Positions 23,839 to 25,694 of a DNA stretch of 64,000 bases are shown one piece after another. The notes beneath the pieces are model-generated. The model was given only the letters and a program-made list of their open reading frames with translations, had not been told where the DNA came from and ran no database searches. The position numbers and the translations under genes were made by a program. This stretch comes from Pedomonas mirosovicensis (GTDB lineage Bacteria > Pseudomonadota > Alphaproteobacteria > Sphingomonadales > Sphingomonadaceae): positions 1,441,001-1,505,000 of the forward strand of contig NZ_JAKFIA010000001.1 in assembly GCF_022569295.1 (NCBI RefSeq). Reading direction: 5' to 3'. Numbering within the stretch: the first letter of the stretch is position 1; the number at the start of each line of letters is the position of its first letter.

Positions 23839-23908
23839 CCTAAATTCACAGGCCATCGCCCGTCGCGGCGCTTGCATTGCGGCCCGCCGGTGTGGCAAGA
23901 AATTGAGC

Positions 23909-23959
23909 ATGACGACTTTCGCTCACACCGTTGCCCTGCGCTGGTGGCGCTCCTTCTAG
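23909..23959 (+). CDS. Predicted leader peptide with tandem Trp codons upstream of trpS
   Basis: A 16-codon reading frame, MTTFAHTVALRWWRSF, ends in TAG. Two adjacent Trp codons lie four to five codons before the stop, as in trp operon leader peptides. It precedes trpS by 123 bases. Stalling at these codons when charged tRNA-Trp is scarce would change folding of the downstream RNA. It is too short for ordinary gene finders. No strong ribosome-binding site is visible. Confidence 0.6.
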   Translation: MTTFAHTVALRWWRSF

Positions 23960-23986
23960 GGAGCGGCGCGTCGTCTTTTTCTTTTT
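23938..23986 (+). promoter_or_regulatory. Candidate Trp attenuator
   Basis: Two mutually exclusive hairpins overlap. GCGC-TGGTG-GCGC (23938-23950) spans the Trp codons, and CGCTCC-TTCTAG-GGAGCG (23948-23965) spans the leader stop. A T-rich stretch (TTTTTCTTTTTT, 23975-23987) follows. The segment GTCGTC (23970-23975) can also pair with GACGAC near the leader start. The layout fits ribosome-mediated attenuation of trpS. Confidence 0.5.
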
Positions 23987-24082
23987 TCAAACGACCATCG
24001 CCGCCGGGGTGAGGCTGGCATGGTTCGTTGATTTTTTCTCCCGCGCATCCTCCCACGGCGGCTCCATACCAGGAGAAACGCC

Positions 24083-25114
24083 ATGCTTACGGGACATCCG
24101 CAAAATCCGGCCGATCGCCGCCCGATCATCCTGACCGGCGATCGCACCACTGGTCCGCTGCATTTGGGCCATTATGTGGGTTCGCTGAAAAATCGCGTCG
24201 CCCTGCAGGAAAGCCGTGAGCAGTTCCTGCTGCTGGCGGACGCGCAGGCGCTCACCGACAATGCTCATGATCCGGAAAAAGTGCGCCGCAACGTACTGGA
24301 GGTGGCGCTGGATTATCTGGCGGTGGGGATCGATCCGCAAAAATCCGCCATCTGCGTGCAATCGCTGCTGCCTGCGCTATCGGAGTTGACCCTGCTTTAT
24401 CTCAACTTCGTCACCGTGGCGCGGTTGGAGCGCAACCCCACGGTGAAGGAGGAAATCCGCCTGCGCGGGTTCGAGCGGGATATTCCGGCCGGTTTTCTCT
24501 GCTACCCGGTCGCGCAGGCGGCGGACATCACCGCGTTCAAGGCGACGCTGGTGCCGGTGGGGGAAGACCAGGCGCCGATGATCGAGCAGAGCAACGAGAT
24601 CGTGCGTCGCATCAACCGGCAGGCGGGGCACGAGGTGCTGCCCGAGTGCAGGGCGCTCATTCCGAACATGGGCCGTCTGCCAGGCGTTGATGGCAAGGCG
24701 AAGATGAGCAAGAGCCAGGGCAATGCCATTGCGCTCTCCGCCGCGCCGGAGGAAATCAGTGCTGCCGTGCGGCAGATGTACACCGACCCCGATCATCTGC
24801 GCGCCAGCGACCCCGGCATGGTGGAGGGCAATGTGGTTTTCGCTTATCTCGACGCGTTCGACGAGGACCGGAGCGGGCTGGAGGACCTGAAGGCGCACTA
24901 TCGCCGGGGCGGCCTTGGCGACATGGTGGTGAAACGGCGGCTGGAGGATATTCTGCAAAACCTGCTTCGCCCCATTCGCGAACGACGCGCGCAGCTGGCG
25001 AAGGACCCCGGCTATGTGCTGTCGATTCTCAAGGCGGGCACGGAAAAGGCCCGCGCCCGCACGGAGACAACACTGGCGGAGGTGCGCGCGGCGTTGGGGC
25101 TGTTCCAGTTTTGA
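24083..25114 (+). CDS. trpS: Tryptophanyl-tRNA synthetase (auxiliary type)
   Basis: Attaches Trp to its tRNA. The 343-residue protein has the class I motifs LHLGH (residues 26-30, as HIGH) and KMSKS (207-211). The sequence [20 protein letters not shown] and the [13 protein letters not shown] stretch resemble the TrpRS type common in Firmicutes and found as a second copy in some proteobacteria, so it may be an extra enzyme. The leader with two Trp codons upstream supports regulation by Trp supply. Confidence 0.9.
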
Positions 25115-25169: not shown

Positions 25170-25649
25170 TCATCCGCTCGCGGGCGGAGAAAACCCCGGC
25201 TCTAGATAACGCGGGCCGGGGCCGCTCTGCCCAGCTCTGTCGTCCGGATTCCGCAAGGGGCAGCTGCTCACCGACAGGCAGCCGCAGCCGATGCAGCCAT
25301 CCAGCCGGTCGCGCAGCAGGGTGAGGCGATTGATGCGATCATTCAGTTCATCACGCCAGGCGGCGGAGAGACGGGCCCAGTCTTCGGCGGTCGGTTTTTC
25401 CTGCGGCAGGGCGCTGAGCGCCTGCTGGATGTCGTTGAGCGGTATGCCGATCCTCTGCGCGGCCTTGATGACGCCGATGCGGCGCAGTACGGCGCGGGAA
25501 TAACGGCGCTGGTTGCCCGCGCTGCGCTCGCTGCGGATCAGCCCCTTGGCTTCATAAAAATGAAGGGTGGAGACGGAAACGCCGCTGCGGGCCGCAACCT
25601 CGCCCACGGAAAGCGATGATTTGTGTTTGGCTCCGTCGATGAGTGTCAT
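25170..25649 (-). CDS. soxR: Redox-sensitive activator SoxR
   Basis: A MerR-family regulator of 159 residues. The HTH is [20 protein letters not shown], and a [2Fe-2S] cluster motif Cx2CxCx5C is intact (C119, C122, C124, C130 in [12 protein letters not shown]). SoxR is activated by redox-cycling drugs. It is divergent from a flavin reductase and an MFS efflux gene. The start at 25649 is preferred over 25664 or 25673, since family members begin close to LSVGEVA. Confidence 0.93.
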
Positions 25650-25663
25650 CGAAATAATTCCCA

Positions 25664-25694
25664 TTGACCTCAACTATGGTTGAGGTTTTATCAG
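25664..25694 (+). promoter_or_regulatory. SoxR box within a MerR-type promoter
   Basis: CCTCAACTATGGTTGAGG (25668-25685) matches the SoxR box ends CCTCAA/TTGAGG. It lies within TTGACC (25664-25669), a 19-base spacer, and TATCAG (25689-25694). The overlong 19-bp spacer is the hallmark of promoters activated by MerR-type twisting. It drives the flavin reductase and MFS genes. Confidence 0.88.

Follow-up and report, generated by a model that had tools for sequence, protein, structure and literature searches.

In the 64,000-nt stretch of Pedomonas mirosovicensis DNA analyzed here (the window), a gene for an auxiliary tryptophanyl-tRNA synthetase (TrpRS) is preceded by a short leader ORF with tandem Trp codons, and it is highly probable that this gene is governed by ribosome-mediated attenuation of transcription, of the kind seen in trp leaders. 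The leader very probably turns on the spare TrpRS solely upon failure of tryptophan charging. Comparison of sequences established the leader, the Trp codons, the type of the gene, the second trpS copy, four covarying helices, and the spacing of the promoter.

Organization of the locus and the two TrpRSs

The leader ORF encoding MTTFAHTVALRWWRSF is located on the plus strand at 23909–23959, with its ATG at 23909 and its TAG stop codon at 23957–23959. The tandem Trp codons, TGG TGG, were read from the sequence at 23942–23947 and were met again in relatives. The auxiliary trpS (24083–25114, plus strand) encodes a protein of 343 amino acid residues that scored 237.9 bits against TIGR00233, above the cut-off. 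Its Shine-Dalgarno sequence, AGGAGA, is located at 24071–24076 (plus strand), and CGGCGGCTCC lies 5′ of it at 24056–24065 on the same strand. The short frame with two Trp codons that the initial annotation had placed 5′ of trpS was borne out, and the observation of a Trp-codon leader before the auxiliary gene is confirmed as real. A SoxR gene (25170–25673, minus strand; 215 bits, above its cut-off) is found immediately 3′ of trpS.

The initial annotation had also assigned the TrpRS to the type found as an extra copy and had proposed a search for a second trpS. A second gene of the ordinary, main type was found in the same genome (C1:354961–355950), in agreement with this assignment. The two TrpRSs share 33% identity across 335 aligned positions. 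The closest solved chains to the auxiliary TrpRS were 1yi8 and 2a4m, both from Deinococcus radiodurans; 2a4m bears the name "Tryptophanyl-tRNA synthetase II". In the alignment of both TrpRSs, the auxiliary enzyme has Gln (ADAQALT) where the main enzyme has His (VDLHAIT), and this His is presumably the residue that matters for indolmycin.

In the family sample (199 genomes), no match other than the window's gene exceeded 38% identity among the matches listed, and in the order sample (246 genomes), only the window's genome had a match beyond 1e-80. In the class sample (385 genomes), 33 genomes had a match at 1e-90: the window's, six others with 70–74% identity, and 26 with 50–60% identity, the last in small genomes. 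As far as these samples go, the auxiliary trpS was therefore imported into this lineage. The genome of Bradyrhizobium valentinum (G220, locus L071) contained four trpS-family matches, three of which were above the family cut-off.

Recurrence of the leader in relatives

GTDB contigs were scanned for relatives of the auxiliary trpS, and the best 80 of 589, which were 65–78% identical and belonged to alpha-, beta-, and gammaproteobacteria, were retained. A WW leader was defined by a fixed rule: TGGTGG in frame, an ATG 8–16 codons earlier, a stop codon within 14 codons, and a distance of at most 420 nt from the match. By this rule, 33 of the 80 GTDB loci had the leader at its fixed place, as did, in the alphaproteobacterial class sample, 5 of 6 further auxiliary copies. 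A WW leader was also read before 11 of 13 plasmid copies (see below). The initial annotation had suggested looking for conservation of the leader and its Trp codons; TGGTGG being itself the criterion, these counts are no measure of how often both codons are kept. No WW leader was found before 30 main-type trpS genes or before the trpS genes of 23 alphaproteobacterial relatives with a sole copy.

The leaders share their build and not their sequence. The ATG lies 9–12 codons ahead of WW in nearly all of them, and the peptides then end in WWRSF, WWRS, WWRST, WWLAS, WWRA, or WWRR, followed by the stop codon. Leaders with a single Trp codon were present too (L052, L079, L112, and L152 among others). 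The motif TGGTGGCGCTCCN{2,7}GGAGCGGC, covering the leader and the stop hairpin, was met in 4 class genomes out of 372, with a single occurrence per genome that always lay directly before the auxiliary trpS; the motif was derived from such loci, and this search is thus a test of specificity, not a discovery.

If the WW ORF were a chance ORF and the structures were G+C noise, hits in random sequence and unremarkable folding would be expected, and indeed 22 of 4071 random windows from the same loci satisfied the WW criterion and the folding scores of the window alone are modest (see below). We regard this explanation as very improbable in view of the recurrence of the leader at the auxiliary trpS, its absence at the main trpS, and covariation with null controls. 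Judged from the sequence counts (33/80, vs 0/30 for main-type genes and 22/4071 for random windows), the leader is no chance ORF. Promoter spacing and strand pairing were compared in a set of 50 leader loci, 20 of which are dissimilar representatives.

The protein search also found relatives on 90 records of a plasmid collection, "plasmid" being the label of the collection, in which some records are chromosome-sized. Forty of these records were listed, and the 13 that were read were picked for variety. Two Escherichia coli plasmids and one Klebsiella plasmid had leaders with WWLPA or WWLPS, and a Deinococcus plasmid had one with WWPGS. The copies without a WW leader had either no leader (L151) or one with a single Trp codon (L152). 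Three enterobacterial plasmid records (L147, L148, and L149) carried the auxiliary trpS with its leader, and in two of them IS26 and IS1, or IS3000 and a predicted fosfomycin gene, were located nearby.

RNA structure and covariation

Predicted folds and covariation gave the following plus-strand elements. Segment 1′ (GACGAC, 23911–23916) is the start-codon-proximal strand of a helix whose other strand, segment 2′ (GTCGTC, 23970–23975), can pair with it or, alternatively, with 23991–23995. Hairpin 1:2 (23948–23965; CGCTCCT/GGGAGCG) spans the stop codon of the leader. Antiterminator 2:3 (23963–24004) combines GCGGCG and GTCGT with ACGAC and CGCCGC, its predicted strands being 23963–23974 and 23991–24004, around a T-rich loop at 23976–23987. 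The likely terminator, 3:4 (23990–24037), has a stem ending at 24029 and a T run at 24032–24037 (GATTTTTT). Both hairpins proposed in the initial annotation were predicted (23926–23946, including the Trp codons, and 23948–23965, spanning the stop codon), but they are adjacent and not overlapping. The T-rich run noted there is present at 23976–23987, but it is probably the loop of the antiterminator, with the likely terminator situated farther downstream.

In the window alone, the leader RNA was modestly stabler than shuffled sequences (z = −1.92; 10 of 200 as stable), the antiterminator was only slightly so (z = −1.37; 17/200), and the terminator was not (z = −0.52; 53/200). Seven T's in eight nucleotides follow the terminator hairpin. 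A consensus scan of the window reported no promoter and no terminator. RNA exposed from 23955, as a model of a stall at the Trp codons with an assumed ribosome footprint, and ending at 24009 formed the antiterminator at −16.1 kcal/mol; segments 3 and 4 alone folded at −20.0 kcal/mol.

To avoid relying on the energy of one sequence, the pairing of each locus's own strands was compared with that of strands permuted among loci, using the 20 representatives, any two of which are less than 60% identical in both segments. Helix 1′:2′, formed by leader nucleotides 1–24 and the segment behind the stop hairpin, scored −10.04 with its own strands vs −6.48 with permuted ones (z = −6.9; 0/5000), and control segments upstream and downstream gave z values of −0.5 and 0.4, respectively. 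Hairpin 1:2, terminator 3:4, and antiterminator 2:3 gave z values of −5.0 (0/5000), −5.1 (0/5000), and −2.9 (13/5000), respectively, for the same representatives. In the terminator flanks, 0.604 of the positions paired vs 0.435 after permutation (0/2000; 49 of the 50 loci, L150 left out). Across all 50 loci, the helix at the start-codon end had a median of 9 pairs; it touched the AUG in 36 loci and included the whole AUG in 13. In the window, the G is the sole AUG nucleotide that takes part. In L096, L097, and L105, its strands paired no better than with permuted partners.

The antiterminator and the terminator both covary and are mutually exclusive by sharing segment 3. In full-length equilibrium folding of the stalled state, 2:3 exceeded 3:4 in just 11 of 39 loci, the terminator being ahead in the other 28, and in the window 2:3 had 0.0 pairs vs 15.5 for 3:4. 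Because equilibrium folding favors the terminator even under a stall, the model needs an order of folding; equilibrium folding failed to yield a switch and was rejected as proof of one.

The initial annotation implied another place for termination, namely that the early structure at 23911–23975 together with TTTTTCTTTTTT (23976–23987) is itself the terminator. The helix 23911–23916/23970–23975 does run straight into 11 T's in 12 nt. However, the long T run is confined to the window, the relatives in alignment A1 being mixed at that place; a closing helix of 6 bp around a long, branched loop is not what an intrinsic terminator looks like; and readthrough would still encounter the conserved 3:4 hairpin. 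We consider this reading quite improbable, and the T run at 23976–23987 was rejected as the main terminator on the grounds that it is not conserved in relatives.

The leader could also act on translation, with constitutive readthrough and an alternative pairing, of segment 3 with CGGCGGC (24056–24062) and of CTCC with the Shine-Dalgarno sequence, that gates the ribosome site of trpS. The GGCGGC(T) element is complementary to segment 3, with CTCC opposite the Shine-Dalgarno sequence, and 13 rows of alignment A1, which has 15, keep GGCGG 24–30 nt ahead of the start codon; several Rhizobiales-type rows also have weak T runs (3–6 T's in 8). Against this, the predicted opening of the ribosome site was inconsistent between the states (0.50 vs 0.36 in the window; either direction in others), and the window has its run of T's after the terminator, which takes a clear, textbook form in the Rhodobacteraceae, beta, and enterobacterial rows. 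Translational control is therefore unlikely, and a role of CGGCGGCTCC in it was rejected, the predicted opening of the ribosome site showing no consistent change. GGCGGC(T) was observed 24–30 nt before the trpS start in the window and in L032, L034–L036, L040, L041, L071, L072, L075, L103, L113, and L117. The rule for locating the trpS start found none for L043, L091, L100, L109, L110, and L111 and was doubtful for L108.

Many synthetase genes of Firmicutes are under T-boxes, but a T-box or another leader that binds tRNA or Trp is extremely improbable here. Neither the window leader nor any of 11 leader loci matched an Rfam family at the gathering score, which removed known RNA families as candidates, and the only gathering-score match in the window was a tRNA. 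Rfam RF00513 (Trp_leader) scored 15 bits in the window leader against a cut-off of 41. This match spans the right stretch, but six other sites of the genome score higher, and it was discarded as support. Among Trp_leader matches below the cut-off of 41, the highest in the genome, at G000:C1:2643192-2643350 and 865462-865570, scored 24–27.6 bits.

Start of the leader transcript

A −35-like TTGCAT is located at 23872–23877 (plus strand), and most of the 50 loci have TTG(A/C) roughly 36 nt ahead of their leader ATG, with T at −36 in 28 and at −35 in 35. The −10-like CAAGAA of the window (23896–23901, plus strand) is a weak match at the position of a conserved A-rich −10 region, in which A was found at −12 in 30 loci and at −11 in 28, and TAnnnT in only 12. 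The Burkholderiales rows have a TATACT-type −10; the hexamer of the window itself matches poorly. C was found at −1 in 38 of the 50 loci and a Shine-Dalgarno-like motif before the leader ATG in 5. The fixed distance of the −35 and −10 elements to the ATG, the C at −1, and the scarcity of Shine-Dalgarno-like motifs point to a leaderless leader, the ORF probably forming the extreme 5′ end of its transcript. Given the conserved spacing, the leader ATG or a position close to it is the expected start of transcription, and a transcript beginning upstream of 23909 would be unexpected.

Proposed mechanism

The ribosome-mediated attenuation proposed in the initial annotation gains support from the second trpS, the recurring Trp codons, and the covarying stop hairpin, antiterminator, and terminator. 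The distances between the elements also fit the classical scheme. RNA polymerase would start at the leader ATG or next to it. With ample Trp-tRNA, the ribosome would reach the stop codon at 23957 and mask segment 2 (23959–23969), whereas if the ribosome has gone or never loaded, hairpin 1:2 and helix 1′:2′ would hold segment 2 closed. Segment 3 would then be free for segment 4, and transcription would stop at 24032–24037. When Trp-tRNA is scarce, a ribosome stalled at 23942–23947 would, with the footprint sizes used in the model, cover 23948–23954 and separate 1 and 1′ from 2, so that segment 2 could capture segment 3 before segment 4 exists and the polymerase could enter trpS. The spare enzyme would thus be produced when the main TrpRS cannot charge tRNA-Trp, through starvation or an inhibitor. 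Besides shutting segment 2, helix 1′:2′ may, as a second role, keep ribosomes that arrive later from reaching the 5′ end. We infer the order of folding during transcription, the termination, the induction, and the resistance to a TrpRS inhibitor.

Leader, trpS copy number, and possible horizontal spread

The count of trpS copies covered 47 of the 80 GTDB genomes and the 33 class genomes, with the upstream region read in 30 of the latter. A WW leader was present in 36 of 42 genomes with two trpS genes (window excluded) and in 1 of 34 with a single trpS of the auxiliary type. This lone exception was Janthinobacterium sp. FW305-129 (L091), for which the single-copy count could be due to an assembly gap. 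The strict WW leader was missing in 5 of 36 two-copy GTDB genomes (L033, L052, L074, L079, and L080), and one Trp codon was retained in L052 and L079. On the tree, sole copies of Cupriavidus that lack the leader nest next to two-copy C. basilensis, which has it. In about five independent pairs on starred branches, the two traits were concordant in 4.4 on average and opposite in 0.1. A sign test on these pairs gave a median p of 0.125 and cannot reach significance with about five pairs, and the claim of significance on the tree was dropped for this reason. The association of the leader with auxiliary status is strong by count; the history is only suggestive.

Three Undibacterium loci (L077, L083, and L092) have a terminator-like GCCGCC hairpin and a T run before trpS, with no WW leader found. 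The trpS of L077 is a sole copy, and L092 retains an ORF with one Trp codon. These upstream regions look like decay of the attenuator.

A joint reading, which we offer tentatively and rate as less likely than not, is that the leader and the auxiliary trpS move horizontally together as a self-contained unit, present in alpha-, beta-, and gammaproteobacteria and in Deinococcus, and that this unit responds when the resident TrpRS fails. In its leaderless RNA, the covarying helix would lock the start-codon end once the sequence following the stop hairpin has been transcribed; the decision would then fall only to an instantly loading ribosome (a one-shot attenuator), and the attenuator would be lost when the auxiliary gene becomes the sole trpS (Cupriavidus, Acinetobacter).

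Spare, possibly inhibitor-proof synthetases are relevant to the survival of bacteria exposed to natural TrpRS inhibitors. Should the leader function as proposed, its presence would flag an emergency trpS copy in environmental and clinical genomes and plasmids, and the 50 leaders (20 dissimilar) provide a testable model of attenuation from leaderless mRNA, including the helix at the start-codon end.

Comparison with known systems

To our knowledge, the textbook trp scheme has no helix at the start-codon end. In the open-access literature, we found no report of a covarying helix between the start-codon end of a leader and the sequence that follows its stop hairpin, or of an auxiliary-trpS attenuator in Proteobacteria or Deinococcus, the latter being weak evidence of absence, with subscription papers largely outside this literature.

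The leader peptide of E. coli trpL likewise ends in WWR-. The window shares tandem Trp codons and the 1:2, 2:3, and 3:4 scheme with trp operon leaders (E. coli trpL, RF00513), but a synthetase would be governed instead of biosynthesis, and the score is under the RF00513 cut-off. The pheST attenuator serves a main enzyme and uses Phe codons; unlike pheST, the gene of the window is an auxiliary synthetase, and the amino acid is Trp and not Phe. The pheST attenuator (pheM) of enterobacteria is named in PMC1262725. The two are alike in that codons for the synthetase's own amino acid attenuate its operon, as predicted for the window's gene.

Inhibitor-proof spare synthetases, namely the indolmycin TrpRS of Streptomyces and the AgnB2 LeuRS, are described in PMC6804068 and PMC7916415. 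The auxiliary TrpRS resembles them as a second synthetase beside the main one, with Gln where the main TrpRS has His, and its resistance is putative. A leaderless leader is reported for Sinorhizobium meliloti trpL (PMC7298713) and Streptomyces lividans trpL2 (PMC8079986). The trpL2 leader encodes MMTRTCTQLWRAA, whose end resembles WWR(S/A), and its transcript begins at the leader ATG, as inferred here for the window.

The closest counterpart is the auxiliary trpS of Streptomyces (trpRS1/trpS2), for which Seliverstov et al. (2005; PMC1262725) predicted an attenuator; besides this prediction, an attenuator before trpS in Streptomyces was observed by RNA-seq. A paper by Vecchione and Sello (J Bacteriol, 2010) reportedly bears, by its title, on this attenuator. 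In both cases, a second trpS follows a short Trp-codon leader with ribosome-mediated transcription attenuation, predicted here. The leader of the window has two Trp codons and a T run; trpL2 of Streptomyces lividans, an actinobacterium, contains a single Trp codon and lacks a U-rich tail. Attenuation of an auxiliary trpS is thus already known from Streptomyces, and the leaders compared here add a wider spread and a putative extra helix.
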